The notes under the pieces were generated by a model. It ran no database searches. It worked only from the letters and a program-made list of their open reading frames with translations, and was not told the DNA's origin. Source: Nitrococcus mobilis Nb-231 (GTDB lineage Bacteria > Pseudomonadota > Gammaproteobacteria > Nitrococcales > Nitrococcaceae). Taken from it: 64,000 nt of DNA. Below are positions 3,671-57,774 of this stretch, piece after piece. Where the stretch lies: the NCBI RefSeq assembly GCF_000153205.1, contig NZ_CH672427.1, positions 3,340,596-3,404,595 on the forward strand. Direction: 5' to 3'. How positions within the stretch are numbered: position 1 is the first letter of the stretch; each line of letters starts with the position of its first letter. The position numbers and the translations under genes were made by a program.

Positions 3671-4456
3671 TTAGGTGGCTTGAGTAGTGCGACTGCGAAG
3701 ATCCGCTTGCAGCAGGGTGGCGCCGATCACCGCTGTGGGCATGGCCACCAGATTAACGAACGGGATAATGGTCAAGCAGAGCACACCGGCGCCGAACCCT
3801 AGGTGGAGCAAGCGGTGTTGGTGCGTTATGCGCCGCTGTTCGCGAAAGGGGATACCTCGGTTACCGAGTGGATAGTCACCGTATTCCAAGGCGATGATCC
3901 AGGCGCCGAAGAGACCCCACAGAAACGGCGCGACGACTTGGACGACCGGGATGATGAACAGGATCAGCAGCGGGATGCCGAGCAGCGCAAAATAGGCGAT
4001 TTTGCGCAGCTCGTCCATGATCGCCTCGACCGACTCAGCTAGGAATGCTTTACCTTCGGGCGCCTGCGGTGGGGATTGGCCAGTCGCGTGCTGCTCGACT
4101 CGCGCGGAGAGCAGGCTATTGAATGGGGCGCCGATCAGATTGGCGAGCGCGGTGAACGTATAAAACATCACCACCACGGCGGCCAGCAGGAACAAAGGCC
4201 AGAGCAGCCAGCGTATGGTTCCTTCCAGAAACGTCAGTAGCTGACCGAGCATGCCGCTGTGTTCAGACGGTATAGCCGGTGGCAGGAGCCACAGCAGCAA
4301 AGTGTGGAACCACTCGGCGCCCCACCAGAGTAGGCCCGCGAACACCAGCACGTTGATTGCGATGGGCAGCAAGACAAAGCGCCGCAATCCCTGGGCGGTC
4401 AGAAGTTGGAAACCCTGCGGGACATAGGTGATACCGCGAAAAAAGTCCATCAGCAT
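3671..4456 (-). CDS. cysZ: CysZ/EI24-family sulfate transporter
   Basis: A 261-residue inner-membrane protein. It has hydrophobic stretches near residues 28-50, 75-105 (LLWPLFLLAAVVVMFYTFT), 155-190 and 215-240, and the family signature YPLGNRGIPFREQRR that follows a long hydrophobic pair. CysZ imports sulfate for cysteine synthesis. No cys genes are adjacent, so the assignment rests on sequence alone. The ATG at 4456 has AGG about 8 nt upstream; a second ATG two codons later (4450) is possible. Confidence 0.88.
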   Translation of the reverse strand: MLMDFFRGITYVPQGFQLLTAQGLRRFVLLPIAINVLVFAGLLWWGAEWFHTLLLWLLPPAIPSEHSGMLGQLLTFLEGTIRWLLWPLFLLAAVVVMFYTFTALANLIGAPFNSLLSARVEQHATGQSPPQAPEGKAFLAESVEAIMDELRKIAYFALLGIPLLILFIIPVVQVVAPFLWGLFGAWIIALEYGDYPLGNRGIPFREQRRITHQHRLLHLGFGAGVLCLTIIPFVNLVAMPTAVIGATLLQADLRSRTTQAT

Positions 4457-4628: not shown

Positions 4629-5018
4629 TCACGGCAAGTGGACCGGTGGCGCTGGCTGCCAGCCCGCCTGGCGGTGCTCTGCCACAACCGTAGTATAGAT
4701 GCCGCCTCTTACGTTAAATTCGGCCGTCAGGCGGGCAAAACGGGGGGCAAGCGCATTGACCAGATCGGAGAGAATGTGGTTGGTCACCGCTTCGTGGAAA
4801 GCGCCTTCGTCTCGGTAAGACCAAATGTATTGCTTGAGTGATTTGAGCTCCACACAATGCTGATCCGGGACATAGTCGATGTGGAGTGTAGCGAAATCGG
4901 GTTGACCGGTCTTGGGGCACAGGCAGGTGAACTCAGGGATGCGAATATGGAGTGTATAGTCGCGCTCCGGCTGTGGGTTAGGGAAGGTGGTTAATTCCCG
5001 ATTCGGCTTCGTGGCCAT
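4629..5018 (-). CDS. queF: NADPH-dependent 7-cyano-7-deazaguanine (preQ0) reductase
   Basis: A 129-residue single-domain QueF (T-fold). It shows the catalytic Cys region [14 protein letters not shown], the QueF signature [20 protein letters not shown] with the substrate Glu, and the downstream His in FHEAVTNHI. It reduces preQ0 to preQ1 in queuosine synthesis. This is the short form, unlike the two-domain E. coli enzyme. The ATG at 5018 is preferred to a TTG at 5030. It is divergent from smc across about 180 bp. Confidence 0.94.
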
Positions 5019-5198
5019 GGTTCTCGACAATACCCGGCAAACTTAAGCGAAAAATTGTATCGTTTGCCGTGCCCAGAGACCAGCATTCCGCCCCGCTCCT
5101 TTACTTACGACGCTGCAAGTGGGAGAGAGCGTTGAGGCCTGGCCTCTCAATGGACCGCGGCCCATCCGGCGCCTTTGCAAACAAAGCAATGGAATACG

Positions 5199-8100
5199 AT
5201 GCGTCTAAACAAAATCAAATTAGCCGGTTTCAAATCCTTCGTCGAGCCAACGACCGTCTCCCTGCCCGGTAGCATCGTGGGGGTCGTGGGTCCCAACGGC
5301 TGCGGTAAATCCAATATCATCGACGCGGTGCGTTGGGTGATGGGCGAGAGTTCGCCGAGATACCTGCGCGGTGAGTCCATGGCGGATGTCATATTCAATG
5401 GCTCTGATGCACGCAAGCCGGTGAGCATGGCTTCCATTGAACTCATCTTTGACAACACGGATGCCGCCGCCGACAGTAAGTATTCGGCTTACAATGAGAT
5501 TTCAGTCCGCCGCCAGGTCAATCGTGAGGGCCAGTCGAACTATTATTTCAATGGCGCGCGCTGCCGGCGTCGGGACATCACGGATGTCTTTCTCGGTACC
5601 GGTCTCGGGCCGCGCAGCTATTCCCTCATCGAACAAAGTATGATCGCACGGATTATCGATGCGCGCCCGGATGAACTGCGAGCCCACTTAGAGGAGGCGG
5701 CCGGCATCTCATTCTATCGGGAACGACGCAAGGAGACCGAGCGTCGGATGCTCGATACTTTGGAGAACCTCGGGCGTTTGAACGATATCCGCAGTGAGCT
5801 TGGCCGTCAGCTCGACAAGCTCACGCGCCAAGCGCGGGCGGCCACGCGCTACCGGGCGCTGAAGGTCGAGCAACGCGAACGCCAAGCCCAGCTCCATGTG
5901 CTCAAACTACAGACCTTGGATAGCGAACAACAGCGCGTGCGCTGCGAGCGTTCGGCCCACGAAGGCGATCTTGAGGCACAGCTCGCCCGGCAAAGCGCGT
6001 TGGAGCACGAAGTCGAAGACTCCCGTGCTTGTTATGCTGAATGCAATGGCCGTGTCAATGAATTACAGGCGCAATACTACACGGCCGGCAGTGAGATCTC
6101 GCGGGTCGAGCAACAGATAGACCACCGCCGCGAGCTGGGTGAGGCGAGCCGGCAAGAGCTGGAACGCAACCGCGAGGCGCTGCTCGAGATCGAGCGTAAC
6201 TTCGATCAGGACCAGGGTAAGCTCGCGAAGCTGCAAGCGCAGCAGCAAGAGCTGGTGCCGGCCGTCAATGAAGCAGCGGTGGCCGAAATCGCCGCGCGGG
6301 AGGCGGCCGGCTCATGGCGAGATCAGCTTGAAAAATGGCGCCAACGTTGGGATCGTTTCAGTGAAGAGGTCGCGCAGTCGGTGCGGATCGTTCAAGTCGA
6401 ACGGGCCCGCATCGAGCAGCTAGAGCAGCGCTCCCATGAACTCACGCGCCGCGCTCGGCGTCTGCAAGAGGAAACCGATCAACTGATTCGGGATGATCCC
6501 GAGGCGGAACTCGCGCAGCTCAGCGAGCGTGAGCGGTCGCTGCTCGAAGAGCTCGCTGAGCTGGAGCAACGGCACCAAAGACAACAAGCCGCTCTCGGCG
6601 AGTTGCGCGAGCGGATAACGCAGCTGACCGATGAGTTGGATGAAGTCCGTGAGGCACTGCATCGCGACCAGGCTCGACTCACCTCGCTTGAGACGATCCA
6701 ACAAGCCGCTTTGGGTGAGGACGAAACGCTCAGGACCTGGCTCGAGAATCTAGCGCTCGATGGCGAGCGCCGGCTGTCACAGTGGGTCGATGTGGAGCCC
6801 GGCTGGGAACATGCCGTGGAGACGGTGCTGGGCTCGGCGCTGCAAGCGATCGTGACCGAGCGAACGTGTACGCCCGGCGAAGCTCTAAGACCACCCTCCG
6901 CGGGCACGGTGATGCTGTTCACGCCGGGCGCTGACGAGGCATTTACCGACCCATCGCTCGCACTCGCTTCGACCCTGCGCGATAAAGTGAATGCGCCCTG
7001 GGCTTTGGACGATTTGCTCGGCCACGTCTATTGCGTCGATGATCTGGACTCGGCTTGCACGCTGGCGGCTGGCCTCGGTACCCATGAGTCGGTCGTTACG
7101 CCAGAGGGGGTTTGGTTGGGCCGGCGCTGGGTTCGTCTGCCCGGAACCAACAATCCGGCGGCTGGCGTCATTGCCCGTGGGCGGGAGCTCGAAGCGCTGC
7201 GCTCCGGGGTTGCTCTCTGGCAGAAGCGTCTGGCGGCCCTACAGTCCGAGCAGGGCCGCTTGCGCTCAGAGTTGGCCGGCGCGGAGTCGACATTCGAGGC
7301 GCTGCGGGAGGAGCTGGCGAGGCGGCAACGGGATCTCGCAAGCGATCGCACTCGCGCGGAGAGTCTCTTGCACCGTCGCGACCAAATTCGTCAGCGGCGC
7401 TCGGTCATCGCTCAGGAGCAAACGGAGATTGCCGCGACGAGGCAGGATACGGTCGAGGTTATTCGCACTGCCCAGGCGCGCCTGCAAGAGGCCTTGGAGC
7501 GCGGCGAGACTCTCGAGCGCGAGCGGGCGCTGCATAACGAGGAACAGCAACGTCTACAAGCACAGCTTGCAACGGCACAAAACCGGTGCAACGAACTCCA
7601 GGCACGCCTTCATGAGCTCACCTTACAGGAGCAAAGCGTCGCTACCGCACAAGCTGCACTGGAGGAATCCTTCACGCGTTTGCAGACCCGTCGTGAACGA
7701 CTACTGACCCGGGATGCCGAGCTTGAGGCGGTGCTGGCGCAGTTGGATGCTCCCGAAGCCGAGCTCGAAAGCGAGCGTGAGCGTTTATTGGCGCGGCAGC
7801 GCACAGTAGAAGAGGAGCTGCGCCAGGCGCGTCGAGAACTCGACGAATCCGGGCGGCGTCTACGCGAGCTCGAACCACAGCGCAGCCAGGCCGCTCAGCG
7901 AGCGGTGGAGCTGCGTCACGTGTTGGAATCGGTTCGCTTGCGTGAGCAGGAGCTGAAAATCCGGGCGCAAGCCCAAGTGGAGCAGCTCGACGAGCTCGGC
8001 TATGAACCTGAGTCGGTGGTGGCCAAGTTGAATCCAGAGTTGAACGAGGCTGCTTGTGCCCAGGAACTGAGCCGCTTGCAGGAGCAGATCGCTCGGCTCG

Positions 8101-16966: not shown

Positions 16967-17536
16967 TTACGGCCCAGGCTGTTCTCCCGTGGAGGCGATT
17001 AGGTATGGGCGCCGCGCGAGTGACACCGTGCTGCGGCGGGCGGCTATTGTAGGCGTGCCCAGTGCTGGGTCGGCGCTTGTTTGAGGTGCTGTCGCTGCGA
17101 GCACATGAGGCTCGCGCACATTATGGCGGACGGTCGTGATCCGGCTCTGCAGAGCCGCCGGTAAGTGCGAATACGCACCGATCAGCAGCACCAAGCGCCG
17201 TATTCCATCGTCGATATCGCACAAACTGCACAAGCGGCTCTGAATCGAGGGTTTGCTCAGTGCCGGCTCGAATTCCCGCAGCAGGTAGATACCGTCGTGG
17301 CGACTGGCCGCGATATAGGCGAGCACATCCGCTGGGGAGCGAGTCCGTGGAATGAAGATATGCTCGACGCCGATCCGGTAGAGCCCGCATTGCGATGACC
17401 AATCGTAGACGGCCTGCCCGGTTGTGAGCGAATACCGTTTGAATAAGGCGAGCAGTCGATCGGTCTCCTGAGTCTTGAGAGCGGCAATGCGATTCGTGGA
17501 GTCGATGATCTGTTGCAGCGTATTGGTTGCATCCAT
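16967..17536 (-). CDS. Small protein resembling the N-terminal domain of Ycf46-type AAA ATPases
   Basis: A 189-residue protein. The part up to about residue 130 (LFKRYSLTTGQAVYDWSSQCGL ... GIYLLREFEPALSKPSIQSR ... RRLVLLIGAYSHLPAALQS) resembles the N-terminal domain that precedes the ATPase core in Ycf46-like AAA proteins. No Walker motifs follow; the tail is low-complexity. It may be a free-standing domain or a truncated relative. The ATG at 17536 has no strong ribosome binding site. A CRP/FNR-like box and a weak promoter lie upstream. Function unknown. Confidence 0.6.
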   Translation of the reverse strand: MDATNTLQQIIDSTNRIAALKTQETDRLLALFKRYSLTTGQAVYDWSSQCGLYRIGVEHIFIPRTRSPADVLAYIAASRHDGIYLLREFEPALSKPSIQSRLCSLCDIDDGIRRLVLLIGAYSHLPAALQSRITTVRHNVREPHVLAATAPQTSADPALGTPTIAARRSTVSLARRPYLIASTGEQPGP

Positions 17537-17600
17537 AGCGCTCACTGGTGAGTTTTTTGTAACTGGAGAGTCACTGTAGTGGATTAAAAGCACAACATTA

Positions 17601-17626: not shown

Positions 17627-18415
17627 TCAGCCAGTGCGGCATTTGTCTATCGCCAGGGTGAACATCCCACCCTGGCGGGCCGGGCGTCTAGGATCGAGTA
17701 GGTAGATCAGTCCGCGGGCCGCCCCGTCTGGTGAGCGCAACTCCGCCGGATTCTCAGCCGGGTAGGCGAGCGCGCGCAGCGCCGTGCGGGTCGCACCCGG
17801 GTCGTAGCTTACGCAGCGCACCGGCGAGTCGTCTGGTAGTTCGGCGGCGAGCGTTCGCATCAAACCCTCGAGTCCGGATTTGGCGACGCCGTAGGCGCCG
17901 GCGTAAGGCTTGCCGATGCGTCCGGCCAGGTCGCTGATGAAAATCACGCGGCTGTGTGAGGCGCGCTCGAGCAGCGGCAGACAGGCTCGGGTGAGTAAAA
18001 AGGGTGCATTGAGGTTGATATGCAGGGTTCGGAACCAAGTCTCGATGTCGTAGTGGGCGATCGGACAGGGTCGGCCCAGTTCGGCGGCATTGTGGATCAG
18101 CGCATCGAGGCCGGCTAGGCTGTCATTCAGCCGTTGGGCGAGTTCCGTATAGTCTTGGGGCTTCGCGCCGAGCAAATCCATGGGGTAAATGGCTGGCTGG
18201 GGGCCGCCGGCTGTCTCGATCTCATCGTAAACGCGCTCCAAGGGTGGAATGTGCCGATCGAGTAGAATCACTGTGGCCCCGGCTTGTGCCGCCGCCAAGG
18301 CGGTTGCACGCCCGATTCCGGCGCCGGCGCCGGTAATGAGCACTCGCTGGTTGGCCAAGGCGTTGGCGGTAGGGCGGTAATCGACCGGGATTTCCTCGGT
18401 CATGGTTTCGGGCAT
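17627..18415 (-). CDS. yciK: YciK-like short-chain dehydrogenase/reductase
   Basis: A 262-residue Rossmann-fold SDR. It has the cofactor motif TGAGAGIG (28-35), NAA (109-111), and the YxxxK pair Tyr175/Lys179. The position 13 residues before the Tyr, normally the catalytic Ser, is Asp162 (FISDLAGRIGK), with Ser161 just before it. Place in the series ubiG-(mupP/gph)-yciK fits YciK, whose substrate is unknown. GAGGAG lies 8 nt before the ATG at 18415. Confidence 0.85.
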   Translation of the reverse strand: MPETMTEEIPVDYRPTANALANQRVLITGAGAGIGRATALAAAQAGATVILLDRHIPPLERVYDEIETAGGPQPAIYPMDLLGAKPQDYTELAQRLNDSLAGLDALIHNAAELGRPCPIAHYDIETWFRTLHINLNAPFLLTRACLPLLERASHSRVIFISDLAGRIGKPYAGAYGVAKSGLEGLMRTLAAELPDDSPVRCVSYDPGATRTALRALAYPAENPAELRSPDGAARGLIYLLDPRRPARQGGMFTLAIDKCRTG

Positions 18416-18427
18416 TGCTCGATCTCC

Positions 18428-19336
18428 TCAGCTTGGTATGCGCGCTCGCGGCTGCGCGCGTGCCGTGCGCCACGCCAGCCAGAGTTTGTGCAATGGGGTC
18501 AGGTGATAACGTCGCTCCAATAGCGGAAAGTGATCGTTCGTCATCACTTCGAGCAACGATCGGTACAGTTCGCCCAGTACAAGACCGGGGCGCTGTGACC
18601 AGCGCTCCGTCGGCGGCAGCCGCTGCGAGGCTTGGGCATAAAAACGGCGCGCGCGATCGGCTTGCTCGGTGAACAAGCGGCGCACCGGCTCGCTGGTCGT
18701 CGAGCGTTGCAAATCGCTCCACTCGACACCGGCGTTGCGGATTTCCGCCTCCGGGATGTAGCACCGCCCAGCCGCTGCATAGCGGCGGACGTTGCGTAGA
18801 AAACGAGTCAATTGCAGCGCGGTGCCCAAATCGTGGGCGAAGTCGAAGGCTCGGCGGTCGCGGTAGCCGCAGACCTGCACCGACAGACTGGCGATGGAGC
18901 AGCCGAGTCGATGGCAGTAAAGCGAGAGCTCGCGAAAGCTCGGATAGAGATTGTACTCCAAGTCCATTTGCGTACCTTCGAGAATCTGCTCGAAGTAGTG
19001 CCGATCCAGTCGATAGCGCTGCACCGGTGCATGCAAGGCTTGGCTGATGGGGTGGCTGCCGCAGCCCTCGAAGATGCGCGCGAGTTCCTCCCGCCACCAG
19101 GCGAGCTTGGCCGCAGCCACCTGGTGGTCGTGGCACTCCACCACGATTTCAGTCACTTCGGCGTGGAAGGCGTGCAAGGCAAGCAGCGCCGCGCGTTTGT
19201 CCGCTTCCGTAAACAGCAACGCATAATGCAGGCTCGATCCCCGGGGGGCGGCTTTGTCGCGGCAGAATTCGACGGCGTTCACGGTGTGTTCGCTACTCCG
19301 CAGGAGCGGGTGTGCTGCTCCGGGATTTGGGTGCAA
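18428..19336 (-). CDS. Squalene/phytoene synthase-like protein with degenerate active site
   Basis: A 302-residue protein that aligns end to end with HpnD/phytoene synthases (GSSLHYALLFTEADKRAALL, AKLAWWREELARIFEG, DLGTALQLTRFLRNV). All four Asp of the two DXXXD diphosphate-Mg motifs are gone. The first motif reads EVTEIVVE (60-67) where the family has EVDDVVDE, and the second reads LRNVRRY (180-186) where the family has LRDVGED. Ordinary prenyl-diphosphate chemistry is therefore unlikely. It lies 12 nt upstream of yciK, probably co-transcribed. The start may instead be the GTG at 19282. Confidence 0.82.
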   Translation of the reverse strand: MHPNPGAAHPLLRSSEHTVNAVEFCRDKAAPRGSSLHYALLFTEADKRAALLALHAFHAEVTEIVVECHDHQVAAAKLAWWREELARIFEGCGSHPISQALHAPVQRYRLDRHYFEQILEGTQMDLEYNLYPSFRELSLYCHRLGCSIASLSVQVCGYRDRRAFDFAHDLGTALQLTRFLRNVRRYAAAGRCYIPEAEIRNAGVEWSDLQRSTTSEPVRRLFTEQADRARRFYAQASQRLPPTERWSQRPGLVLGELYRSLLEVMTNDHFPLLERRYHLTPLHKLWLAWRTARAQPRARIPS

Positions 19337-19424: not shown

Positions 19425-20165
19425 TCATAGGGTCGTTTGGATGCCCGGCGGGCTCGACTGGCTCGACGGACCCAGCGCGGGGGCCAACCAGGACAGGATC
19501 TCCAGGGGATGCTCGATGAGCCCGTCGGCGCCCCAATCGGCTACTTGAGCATTGGGCTCGAGATAGCCGAACAGCGCCGCCAAGGCTGGGGTGCCGGCGC
19601 GCCGCGCGGCCGCAATGTCCTGCGGTGCATCACCCACCATCACACACTCCGGTGGCGTCAGAGCCAACTGTCGGCAGGCGGTGAAGATGGGGTGGGGATT
19701 GGGTTTGTGCAACGCTCGACAATCGCCGGTAACCACACAGGCGGCACGCCGAAGGTAGCCAAGTTGTTTCAGCAGCGGTCGAGTGAGCCAGCTCGGCTTA
19801 TTGGTTACGATCCCCCAGCGCAGGTTGCGGGCCTCGATCTCGGCTAGCAGCTCGTCGATACCGGGGAAGGGACGGGTCTGGCAGCTGAGTCGCGCCCGGT
19901 AGATGTCGAGGTAGCGTTGCAGCAACGATGCGAAACCCGGTTCATCGCGACTGAGCGCAAAGCCGTGGCGAATCATCGCGGCTCCCCCCTGTGCGACTAT
20001 CGGGCGGAGTGGCTCCGGCGCCAGGGTGGTCAGGCCGTGCTCGCGGCGCAGGTCGTTGAGGCTGCCGATTAGATCGGGTGCCGTGTCAAGGAGCGTGCCG
20101 TCCAAGTCCAACAAAACCGCCTTGGCAAGGCGTGACGAGGCGCCACCTGCGGCAGAATGAATCAT
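19425..20165 (-). CDS. mupP: HAD phosphatase: MurNAc-6-phosphate (MupP) or phosphoglycolate (Gph) phosphatase
   Basis: A 246-residue HAD hydrolase. The nucleophile motif is DLDGTLLDTAPDL, motif II the Thr in GIVTNKPSW, the Lys in HKPNPHP, and motif IV is in VMVGDAPQDI. The Gph family covers both activities. The C-terminal GYLEPNAQVADWGADGLIEH resembles MupP of Pseudomonas. The local order gyrA-mtnA-mtaD-ubiG-HAD-yciK is also the Pseudomonas mupP locus as recalled. MupP frees MurNAc in peptidoglycan recycling, while Gph detoxifies 2-phosphoglycolate. The ATG at 20165 is chosen for its fit to the family N-terminus. Confidence 0.72.
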   Translation of the reverse strand: MIHSAAGGASSRLAKAVLLDLDGTLLDTAPDLIGSLNDLRREHGLTTLAPEPLRPIVAQGGAAMIRHGFALSRDEPGFASLLQRYLDIYRARLSCQTRPFPGIDELLAEIEARNLRWGIVTNKPSWLTRPLLKQLGYLRRAACVVTGDCRALHKPNPHPIFTACRQLALTPPECVMVGDAPQDIAAARRAGTPALAALFGYLEPNAQVADWGADGLIEHPLEILSWLAPALGPSSQSSPPGIQTTL

Positions 20166-20237
20166 CCCGCGCACCTCAGCCGGTTTATGCAGCGCGGCAA
20201 CGGTAATCGTTGCGGCGGGCCTGGTTCGCAAAAGTAG

Positions 20238-20258
20238 CGCTGCCACCCTTTGGCAGCG
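20238..20258. repeat. Short inverted repeat between ubiG and the HAD gene
   Basis: CGCTGCCA (20238-20245) and TGGCAGCG (20251-20258) form a perfect 8-bp stem with a 5-nt loop. No T-tract follows, so it could be a processing or weak termination site in the minus-strand operon. Confidence 0.5.
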
Positions 20259-20375: not shown

Positions 20376-21080
20376 CTATTGTTCGAGCGTAAAATGTGCC
20401 AGGTAGTTGACCGACACATCGTGGCTGAGCGCATAACGGCGCGTGATCGGGTTGTACCCGAGGCCACGCAGATCCTGTAACAAAAGGCCTTGGGCACGGG
20501 CCCACGCCCCCAGCTCGGAGGGGCGGATGAATTGGCGGTAATCGTGGGTGCCGCAAGGCAGCAGCCGCAGCACGTATTCAGCCCCGATGATCGCTAACAA
20601 ATAGGCTTTTGGGTTGCGGTTGATAGTCGAGAAAATGGCTACGCCACCGGGGCGGAGCAGGCGTGCACAGGCGCTGATCGACATCGCCGGATCCGGCACG
20701 TGCTCAAGCAGTTCCATACAGGTAACCGCGTCGAATTCATGGGGACGGCTTTGCGCGAGCTCCTCCACGCTGGTCAGTTGATAATCGACTGCGGTGTGCG
20801 CCTCCGCGGCATGGAGCCTTGCCACGGCCAGGCTCCGTTCGGCCAGGTCGATGCCGAGCACCCTGGCGCCGCGCCGTGCCATGGCTTCGCTCAGCAGGCC
20901 GCCGCCGCAGCCTACGTCGACAATGCGCCGATTGGCGAGACCTCCGAGGCATTGCTCGACGTACGCAAGACGCAGGGGATTGATCTGATGTAAGGGCTTG
21001 AATTCGCCCTCAGGATCCCACCATCGGCTGGCGATACGATCAAATTTGGCAAGCTCTAGGGGGTCGATATTCGGGGGCAC
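20376..21080 (-). CDS. ubiG: Ubiquinone biosynthesis O-methyltransferase
   Basis: A 234-residue SAM-dependent methyltransferase. The N-terminal FDRIASRWWDPEGEFKPLHQ is diagnostic for UbiG, motif I is VDVGCGGGLLSEAMARRG, and FSTINRNPKAYLLAIIGAEY is the membrane-contacting segment. It performs both O-methylations in ubiquinone synthesis. The GTG at 21080 is favoured because GGAAGG lies 9 nt upstream; a TTG at 21089 directly abuts that site. Confidence 0.95.
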   Translation of the reverse strand: MPPNIDPLELAKFDRIASRWWDPEGEFKPLHQINPLRLAYVEQCLGGLANRRIVDVGCGGGLLSEAMARRGARVLGIDLAERSLAVARLHAAEAHTAVDYQLTSVEELAQSRPHEFDAVTCMELLEHVPDPAMSISACARLLRPGGVAIFSTINRNPKAYLLAIIGAEYVLRLLPCGTHDYRQFIRPSELGAWARAQGLLLQDLRGLGYNPITRRYALSHDVSVNYLAHFTLEQ

Positions 21081-21296
21081 TTCTAGCAACCTTCCGCCTC
21101 ACTATGAAGCCACGCGGGAGGCCGCGCAAACGGGGCGTCTGCGGATCCCCGCACGGCCATCTCGGCCGGTGCCGGGTGGTCACGGTACATACAACCCAGG
21201 CCCACACCGGTTCGAACAAGGCACCGTAATTTTTTTGTGGAGAAACTTGGGCTGACCCGTTGCCGCGCCCACTTGGCGTTGGCGCACGGGAACCCA

Positions 21297-55832: not shown

Positions 55833-57774
55833 ATGTAGTGCCATAATATTTGTTGTTATCCCTTGTGCGGAGCGCCCGCCCACGCTAGCCTCGCGGGCAT
55901 GTTCATCCGCCGCACCCAGACCCGCAGCACGGCCACCGGCGAGTCGTATGTCACGTATCGTCTGGTGCGCTCCGAGCGGCGCGCCGGTAAGGTCCGCCAG
56001 CGCACCCTGTTGAACCTGGGGCGGCACTTCCCAGTGGCGCAGGCACACTGGTCGGCGTTGTGTGCGCGCATCGAGCAACGGCTCAGCGGCCAGGCGGCGC
56101 TGTTCGACGAGGAGGGGAAGGGCCTCCCGCTCGCCGTCGAGCGCCAGGCCGAGCGTATTGCGGCGCGGCTGCTCGCCGAGCAGGGCGGTACGCCGGCACC
56201 GGCCGATGCTGGCGGTGTACCCGGCGGTGGGGGTGACGTGCAGTCGGTGGACGTGGACTCGCTCTCACTGGTGCGCCCGCGCTCGGTGGGCGTCGAGCAG
56301 CTCGCCCTGTGGGCGCTGCGCCAGGCGGGCTTGGAGGAGCAGCTCCAAGCGCTGGGGCTGACCGGCCCGCAACGTGCGGCGGCGCTGGGGCTGATCGTTG
56401 CCCGCATGGCCGCCCCGGGCTCGGAGCGGGCGACGTATCAGTGGCTCGCCCGGCGCAGCGGCCTCGGCGAGCTGCTGGAGGTGGACTTCGAGGCGATGAG
56501 CCCGATGCAGCTCTACCGTACCTCCGATATCCTGCTGCGCCACCGCGCGGCCCTCGAAGGGCATTTGTTCGCCCGGGTGAGCGATCTGTTCGCGCTCGCC
56601 CCGACAATCACGCTCTACGATCTGACCAACACTTACTTCGAGGGCGAGGCACCGGTCAATCCGGCCGCGCGCCACGGCCACTCCAAGGAGCGGCGCAGCG
56701 ACTGCCCGCTGCTCACCCTGGCGCTGGTGCTCGATGCCTGCGGCTTTGTGCGCCGCTCGCGGGTCTTCGCTGGCAATGCGGCCGAGGCGCAGACCCTCCA
56801 GGGGATGCTCACCGGCCTCGCGGCGCCCGCCGGCGCGCTTGTGGTCATGGACCGCGGGGTGGCCACCGAGGCCAACCTCGCCTGGCTGGCCGAGCAGGGC
56901 TACCGCTATCTGGTGGTCAGCCGCGAGCGCCGCCGCGCGGTCGATTTTAAAGAGGCCATCACCCTCGACAACGCCGGCGGGCAGGCCGTGGAGCTACTCA
57001 AAGTGCCCTTGGCCGATGGCCAGGGGGTGCGCCTGTATTGTCGCTCCGAGGGCCGCGTGCGCAAGGAGCAAGCGATCGCCGGACGCCTGATGGACCGCTT
57101 CGAGGCTGGGCTCGACAAGCTTGCGACCGGACTCAGCCGGCGGGGCACCACCAAGCGCATCGACAAGCTCTGGGAGCGCATCGGGCGGCTCAAGGAGAAA
57201 AGCCGCGGCCTCGGCCAGCACTACCACATTGAAGTGATCGCCGGTGACAGCGGCGAGCGCGCCCGTGCGATCCACTGGCAGCGCCTGCCCGTGAAAGGCT
57301 CTCTGGTCACCGAGCCGGGCGTCTATTGCCTGCGCAGCAACGAGACCGGCTGGGACGAGAAGACAATGTGGCGCACCTACATCATGCTCACCGACCTTGA
57401 GGCGGTCTTCCGAAGCCTGAAATCGGAGCTCGGCCTGCGCCCGATCTTCCATCACAAGGAAGAGCGCGCCGAGGGGCACCTGTTCATCACCGTGCTCGCC
57501 TATCAGTTCGTCCAGCTCATCCGCCACCGCCTCGCCGCCCACGGCATCTGCGAGCGTTGGAGCACGCTACGCGATACCCTCGCCGGCCAGTGCCGGGTCA
57601 CCGCCACGTTCAACCGCGGCGATGGCCGCACCCTGCACGTGCGCAAGGCCACCCGCGCCGAGCCCGATCAGGCGCGAATCTATCAGGCCCTCGGGGCCGA
57701 TCCCGCCCCGGGCGGCGTGCAGAAAACAATCGTGTGAGCCCGCTGATTTATAAAATGAACGTAATGTAGTGCCA
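55833..57774 (+). mobile_element. IS1634-like insertion sequence with 11-bp flanking direct repeats
   Basis: The transposase gene is bracketed by ATGTAGTGCCA at 55833-55843 and 57764-57774, in the same orientation. This is consistent with a target-site duplication. Terminal inverted repeats just inside are not clear by eye, so the exact ends are uncertain. The left non-coding end contains AT-rich TAATATTTGTTGTTATCCC. GC content of the transposase is higher than that of its surroundings. Confidence 0.7.
55899..57737 (+). CDS. IS1634-family DDE transposase
   Basis: A 612-residue transposase with a complete frame. The first catalytic Asp is in ITLYDLTNTYFEGEAP, the second in LVVMDRGVATEANLAWLAE, and the Glu/YREK-type region in LTDLEAVFRSLKSELGLRPI with FHHKEERAEGHLFITVLAYQ. 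It starts at ATG 55899 with MFIRRTQTRS, typical of this family. It appears intact and potentially active. The usual IS1634-family length is about 500-600. Confidence 0.88.
   Translation: MFIRRTQTRSTATGESYVTYRLVRSERRAGKVRQRTLLNLGRHFPVAQAHWSALCARIEQRLSGQAALFDEEGKGLPLAVERQAERIAARLLAEQGGTPAPADAGGVPGGGGDVQSVDVDSLSLVRPRSVGVEQLALWALRQAGLEEQLQALGLTGPQRAAALGLIVARMAAPGSERATYQWLARRSGLGELLEVDFEAMSPMQLYRTSDILLRHRAALEGHLFARVSDLFALAPTITLYDLTNTYFEGEAPVNPAARHGHSKERRSDCPLLTLALVLDACGFVRRSRVFAGNAAEAQTLQGMLTGLAAPAGALVVMDRGVATEANLAWLAEQGYRYLVVSRERRRAVDFKEAITLDNAGGQAVELLKVPLADGQGVRLYCRSEGRVRKEQAIAGRLMDRFEAGLDKLATGLSRRGTTKRIDKLWERIGRLKEKSRGLGQHYHIEVIAGDSGERARAIHWQRLPVKGSLVTEPGVYCLRSNETGWDEKTMWRTYIMLTDLEAVFRSLKSELGLRPIFHHKEERAEGHLFITVLAYQFVQLIRHRLAAHGICERWSTLRDTLAGQCRVTATFNRGDGRTLHVRKATRAEPDQARIYQALGADPAPGGVQKTIV

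Follow-up and report, generated by a model that had tools for sequence, protein, structure and literature searches.

NDUFAF6 is a human disease gene. Passages of two papers (PMC8007014, PMC12470011) describe NDUFAF6 and its orthologues as proteins of the squalene/phytoene synthase fold (SQS_PSY) that lack the DxxxD motifs, and as aiding the assembly of respiratory complex I through ND1 biogenesis. A second described system is the squalene pathway encoded by hpnCDE, which PMC9062700 regards as vertically inherited in Chromatiales. Among the open-licence papers listed as literature matches, none was seen to report a gammaproteobacterial family of HpnD proteins with broken catalytic motifs (hereafter, dead HpnD). 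The window analysed here is a stretch of 64,000 nucleotides from Nitrococcus mobilis Nb-231. Judged by comparison of sequences, one of its genes is a conserved HpnD-derived pseudoenzyme that belongs to a large set of such proteins in the Gammaproteobacteria.

The open reading frame of this gene lies at 18428–19336 on the minus strand and comprises 302 codons; the genome is of 3.6 Mb. The full frame extends up to a TTG at 19336, and the GTG at 19282 would give a protein of 284 residues. This GTG is the likely start, rather than the TTG, since the relative L034 has an ATG at that codon. The likely coding sequence is accordingly 18428–19282 (minus strand), and its product is assigned as an HpnD-derived, motif-less protein of the squalene/phytoene synthase fold from the reading frame, the Pfam and NCBIfam searches, the start in L034 and a predicted model. 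The frame passes the cut-off for Pfam SQS_PSY (PF00494; 183 bits versus 26). With the NCBIfam model for HpnD (TIGR03465) it scores 275.8 bits, just below the cut-off of 278.6, and 104.7 bits with the HpnC model, the HpnD score being far above those for HpnC and CrtB. A comparison of profiles points the same way, with E-values for the window family of 1e-84 to active HpnD and 3e-27 to HpnC. The gene resembles HpnD in best-scoring family, in a match over the full length and in lying in the slot that HpnD occupies in other Gammaproteobacteria, but it differs in the absence of both aspartate motifs and of many other conserved positions. The HpnD of the congener G003 scores 284.6–284.8, over the cut-off, yet its motifs are broken; the TIGR03465 cut-off is therefore no test of catalysis, and squalene synthesis should not be deduced from a gene being annotated as SQS_PSY or HpnD.

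The predicted model of the window protein (pLDDT 94.6, pTM 0.91) has the squalene synthase fold, with a Z-score of 31.5 and an rmsd of 2.8 over 276 residues in comparison to 5iys. The corresponding Z-scores are 30.9 for the CrtM-like 8is6, about 30 for CrtM and 26.7 for HpnC (4hd1), and the TM-scores to 8is6 and 8is8, both CrtM-like, are 0.84–0.85. A search of solved structures by sequence likewise returned CrtM-like proteins, HpnC and CrtM. HpnC, CrtB and CrtM have the fold in common with the window protein, but they match it much more weakly in sequence and are active enzymes.

Active HpnD proteins carry the motifs E-V-D-D-V-V-D-E and N-x-x-x-D-x-x-x-D. In alignment with them, the window protein has EVTEIVVE (residues 60–67 of the full frame; 19136–19159, minus strand) in place of EVDDVVDE, and LRNVRRY (residues 180–186; 18779–18799, minus strand) in place of LRDVRED, which bears out the original prediction that these two strings are replaced DXXXD motifs and that the four catalytic aspartates are missing. 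The residues corresponding to D62, D66, D182 and D186 of HpnD are T, V, N and Y, D63 is replaced by E, and the second-motif positions read R178, N182 and Y186. The further claim that the rest of the protein is kept stands for the fold, but not for the sequence, as 28 positions that are at least 85% conserved in active HpnD are less than 50% conserved in dead copies. These positions cluster at both motifs and at 122–124, 148–156 and 258 and, by analogy with the known fold, would line the pocket. Among dead copies the motif positions vary freely, and no other conserved set of residues has arisen there. The survivor is a signature outside the motif regions, KLxWWxxEL...HP...LTPLxxLWxAWR, which active HpnD largely has as well. 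Its elements in the window protein, all on the minus strand, are KLAWWREEL (residues 77–85; 19082–19108), a His-Pro pair (residues 95–96; 19049–19054) and the C-terminal LTPLHKLWLAWRTAR (residues 279–293; 18458–18502). In a highly diverse set of 67 dead copies, a single Trp of the first element and the His of the second are invariant, and L, W, E and P are nearly so.

The genes around this one are, in order, ubiG (20376–21089; TIGR01983, 276 bits, cut-off 103), a HAD phosphatase (19425–20246) whose best NCBIfam match is MupP at 194.5 bits, below the cut-off of 359, the window gene itself, and a yciK-like SDR oxidoreductase (17627–18415; NCBIfam search), all on the minus strand. The start of yciK lies 12 bases past the stop of the window gene, and this short gap makes a common operon likely. 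After yciK follows an ORF of 208 residues (orf208; 16967–17593, minus strand) with no Pfam or NCBIfam match. In contrast to what an HpnD function would entail, the window genome has no HpnE match at E 1e-20 and no HpnC over the cut-off, where the HpnC model matches only this gene and a second synthase. That second gene is an intact Sqs-type synthase directly adjoining a squalene-hopene cyclase (G000:C1:2412208-2415234), and HpnCDE would therefore be redundant in this genome.

Forty-three genomes of the order with any SQS-type ORF were read, and 38 of these have one in the slot, with mupP and yciK both near in 36. Not one of the 38 slot copies retains the first motif whole, and not one the second, which is more than chance would give. 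None of the four aspartates is present in 14 copies, one in 21 and two in 3; the aspartate at position 186 is kept in 20, that at 66 in 5, that at 182 in 2 and that at 62 in none. The window copy is among those stripped of all four. The original prediction asked for a check of whether homologues with the same neighbours have the same losses; the breaking of both motifs is common to all 38, but the loss of all four aspartates is found in only 14. SQS-type genes elsewhere in the genomes of the order, of the CrtB or Sqs kind, have intact motifs. The unmatched orf208 is near the slot in 27 of the 38 genomes.

A wider sample comprised 370 gammaproteobacterial genomes, of which 186 match the profile of the order and supplied 100 regions. 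All six motif positions read D-D-D/N-D-D in 197 of 333 SQS-type ORFs. A copy was classed as active HpnD if its first motif was intact and it also contained the string YAFCRE, YAYCRE or YAFCRV, and as dead if its first motif departed from D-D/T-x-x-D in an ORF piece of more than 230 residues; 82 of the 186 matching genomes fall in neither class, most of them being genomes from which no region was taken, and at least one (G088) lying outside the string filter. The slot between mupP and yciK contains intact hpnCDE, or intact HpnD alone, or a motif-broken HpnD. The first arrangement, hpnC-hpnD-hpnE with intact motifs, is seen in many Gammaproteobacteria. A dead copy is present in 43 genomes of the sample and an intact HpnD in 61, and none of the 104 classed genomes has both. 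HpnE is found over the cut-off in 48 of the 61 genomes with intact HpnD, versus one of the 43 with a dead copy (G326).

Addition of 39 relatives, four of them common to both sets, gives 78 dead-copy genomes. Their copies retain none of the four aspartates in 28 cases, one in 38, two in 12, and three or four in none. The first motif is whole in none of the 78, and both aspartates of the second are present in three (G063, G105, G296). Residual chemistry may exist in the 50 copies with one or two aspartates.

In twelve genomes an intact HpnD is present although HpnE has no match and no HpnC passes the cut-off (the remaining HpnC matches reach at most 70 bits). As a control for this count, six of six HpnC proteins from hpnCDE loci score 287–341 against the cut-off of 250; genome G139, with HpnE at 245 bits and so below the cut-off, was left out. 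The lone HpnD directly precedes yciK in G120, G157, G261 and G317, and in some others (G236, G312) the contig stops too soon for the neighbours to be fully seen. The slot was probably occupied by intact HpnD first. The most telling observation is that HpnD, whether intact or dead, is retained there after the loss of HpnC and HpnE, and this suggests that the protein has a second function. Homologues with intact motifs next to yciK had been proposed as a sign that the window copy is simply decaying. Such homologues were found, but decay is not implied by them, as the dead copies are open and conserved.

Two observations concern hpnE in this sample. In G326, the dead HpnD (locus L227) is still beside hpnE in the mupP–yciK slot, possibly a half-way state. 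Over all 370 genomes, a squalene-hopene cyclase match occurs in one of the 81 with HpnE over the cut-off (G362), versus 52 of the 289 others, and it seems that HpnCDE squalene in Gammaproteobacteria is mostly not for hopanoids.

The number of losses was addressed with three trees, of 100 rows (motif columns removed), of 66 rows (hand-thinned by leaving out 11 long or awkward loci, every second active HpnD and a few others) and of 42 rows picked by hand without the long rows. Repeated conversion in place appears more likely than a single origin on the sequences compared, although a single origin passes the AU tests. The backbone of the 66-row tree is without resolution. In the 42-row tree, the dead copy of G281 and the intact HpnD of G183, from the same genus, form a sister pair (100/99); the best tree requires four changes, and the starred branches force two. 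The best match of the dead copy of G187 is the intact HpnD of G362, again from the same genus, at 53%. The alternative, in our estimation rather unlikely, is that the losses were not repeated and that Proteobacteria had a single ancient family of dead HpnD/NDUFAF6, which hpnCDE afterwards displaced in certain lineages. It draws on the 100-row tree, in which 50 dead gammaproteobacterial and nine alphaproteobacterial copies fall on one side (SH-aLRT 99.6), and on the 42-row set, in which one dead clade is not rejected (p-AU 0.113). It has to contend with the long rows and branches that weaken the 100-row grouping, with the placement of G281 beside the intact HpnD of its own genus, and with G187 and G394 being nearest to intact copies. 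The dead copy of G394 lies among intact ones in the 100-row tree, and its addition to the dead side gives a p-AU of 0.79; a clade of gammaproteobacterial dead copies without the alphaproteobacterial ones, which are long-branched, gives 0.66, and neither arrangement is rejected.

The alphaproteobacterial copies are motif-less SQS_PSY proteins which we take to be probable relatives of NDUFAF6, from the character of the family and the scores of a human sequence. In profile comparisons they match dead copies at E 9e-31 and active HpnD at 2e-24, with CrtB at 1e-13 and HpnC at 1e-10. The human sequence, used in approximate form, scores 148 bits to the alphaproteobacterial copies, 129 to all dead copies, 122 to active HpnD, 101 to the dead copies of the order and less than 50 to HpnC or CrtB. 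On the profile comparison and these scores, NDUFAF6 looks HpnD-derived. The window protein has, like NDUFAF6, the SQS_PSY fold without DxxxD motifs, and the KLxWWxxEL-like and C-terminal motifs of NDUFAF6 and its alphaproteobacterial relatives can be aligned with those of the dead copies; a difference is that the two groups are about 23% identical in the profile alignment. The comparison with NDUFAF6 made in the original prediction is thus upheld as kinship, the alphaproteobacterial proteins matching HpnD and dead copies far better than HpnC or CrtB, and orthology with the window family is a possibility. The alphaproteobacterial copies showed none of ubiG, mupP and yciK in the short stretches examined on either side, and a search of solved structures with an alphaproteobacterial protein of the NDUFAF6 type gave no convincing match.

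The distribution of complex I (NDH-1) fits a role in that complex but cannot show it. NuoD is present in 329 of the 370 gammaproteobacterial genomes, the window genome included, where a single NuoD match lies together with NuoL at C1:814874-824828, about 2.5 Mb from the gene. NuoD is missing in 6 of the 186 genomes that match the order's profile versus 35 of the 184 that do not (Fisher p 7e-7, phylogeny ignored), a comparison of little power because complex I is common in the class. Evidence for NDH-1 was found in all 43 dead-copy genomes of the sample, as NuoD in 41 and as NuoL over the cut-off in G209 and G418. Among the relatives, 37 of 39 dead-copy genomes have a NuoD match (in pieces in G030), and the two in which it is missing, G033 (78% complete) and G058 (62% complete), are both MAGs. 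With the two sets joined, NuoD or NuoL is present in 76 of the 78. Two genomes with intact HpnD, G164 and G239, are without NDH-1. NDH-1 has no general need of the window family, as 149 NuoD-positive genomes are without a match to the order's profile. When 80 of the 184 unmatched genomes were searched with a more diverse profile, divergent copies of the dead type were found in 5 of 45 that are NuoD-positive and in none of 35 that are NuoD-negative. These are the copies of G069, G154, G099 and, as a C-terminal piece, G113, beside ubiG, and that of G064, without recognised neighbours; the other hits of this profile are Sqs-type, two of them in NuoD-negative genomes. The Nitrococcus relatives G001, G003 and G004 each have one more ORF that passes the NuoD cut-off; it is longer (588–601 residues) and perhaps encodes a NuoCD fusion belonging to another complex I.

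The reading that we prefer is that of an HpnD-derived pseudoenzyme which plausibly acts as an NDUFAF6-like assembly factor, and we hold it with a little less than even confidence. The mupP–yciK slot would have held hpnCDE, and with the squalene pathway lost or replaced, HpnC and HpnE would have gone. HpnD presumably had, or gained, a second and non-catalytic job, for which the gene would have been kept when the pathway was lost or replaced. The aspartate motifs and other residues invariant in HpnD are lost, and the helical fold is retained under purifying selection. As a tentative first choice, by analogy, this job may resemble that of mitochondrial NDUFAF6, a membrane-peripheral protein that assists the assembly of complex I, and it would use the KLxWWxxEL/HP face together with the C-terminal Trp-rich helix. 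A broader and doubtful extension is that HpnD in general moonlights, combining presqualene diphosphate synthesis with non-catalytic respiratory assembly through the same face and helix, that in every lineage which drops or replaces HpnCDE the lone HpnD is retained while its active site erodes, repeatedly and in the ubiG-mupP-yciK slot, and that mitochondrial NDUFAF6 arose likewise on the alphaproteobacterial side. A bacterial counterpart of NDUFAF6 with intact relatives at the same locus, twice within the same genus, would make the question testable in bacteria.

Of the other roles that might be considered, the binding of polyprenyl or quinone precursors without catalysis, as a chaperone or presenter for UbiG or a complex in ubiquinone synthesis, seems unlikely to us. 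The fold belongs to prenyl-binding enzymes, and of the 78 dead-copy genomes 67 have ubiG no more than 6 kb away and 65 have mupP no more than 4 kb away, but the same two genes flank intact hpnCDE, so that the position beside them probably predates the loss; moreover, the residues that are kept differ from the motif regions, which vary freely. The specific quinone role offered in the original prediction was not sustained, the neighbouring ubiG being the one piece of evidence for it. It is improbable that the protein regulates or scaffolds those isoprenoid enzymes that are still present (Sqs, Shc, carotenoid synthases). The intact synthase directly beside the hopene cyclase in the window genome would suit such a role, as would the presence of a hopene cyclase in 15 of 43 dead-copy versus 3 of 61 intact-HpnD genomes, but the 28 dead-copy genomes without a hopene cyclase match argue that this cannot be the general function. 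We consider catalysis through a metal-free or altered active site equally improbable: folds can be reused, the pocket may stay open in the model and 50 of the 78 dead copies keep one or two aspartates, but the variable motif positions show no new conserved constellation, and all four aspartates are gone from the window copy.

Selection on the window gene was gauged by dN/dS between Nitrococcus genomes (Nei-Gojobori), which is 0.13–0.16 for the gene itself, 0.11–0.20 for yciK, 0.16–0.20 for mupP (just 82 codons in the pair with L034), 0.07–0.14 for ubiG and 0.17–0.34 for orf208. Decay of the window gene, with a ratio like those of its functional neighbours, is disfavoured, and the selected non-synthase role proposed originally is well supported by conservation, by dN/dS and by likely conversion in more than one lineage. 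That the gene is being lost, and that its product has the HpnD fold still by mere chance, is highly improbable in view of this ratio, of the 32 invariant columns in 21 order-level copies and of the single ORF that spans the domain in 76 of 78 dead-copy genomes, and in spite of the intact homologues in the same slot, the divergence of some dead copies down to 21% identity to the window, the two copies not in one ORF at the threshold used (G380 and G030, the latter split, as is its nuoD) and the 13 listed profile matches in the class sample that run over a stop codon. The stop lies past the C-terminal signature in all eight of these 13 that were checked. The strong divergence of several dead copies could reflect relaxed constraint.

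Some features beside the main subject were also seen. A long ORF at 55863–57737 of the window (plus strand) presumably encodes an IS transposase, which it resembles. In some relatives, the stretch that separates mupP from the dead HpnD was considered as the site of an HpnC remnant, and this was rejected, as the long ORFs put to Pfam proved to be RmuC in four of four cases. These rmuC genes lie at 4434–5789 in L045, 6941–8272 in L052, 3683–4960 in L060 and 6199–7548 in L228. In Plasticicumulans (L139), two adjoining motif-less SQS_PSY ORFs are found at 4984–5961 and 5977–6840, which may be dead forms of HpnC and HpnD.
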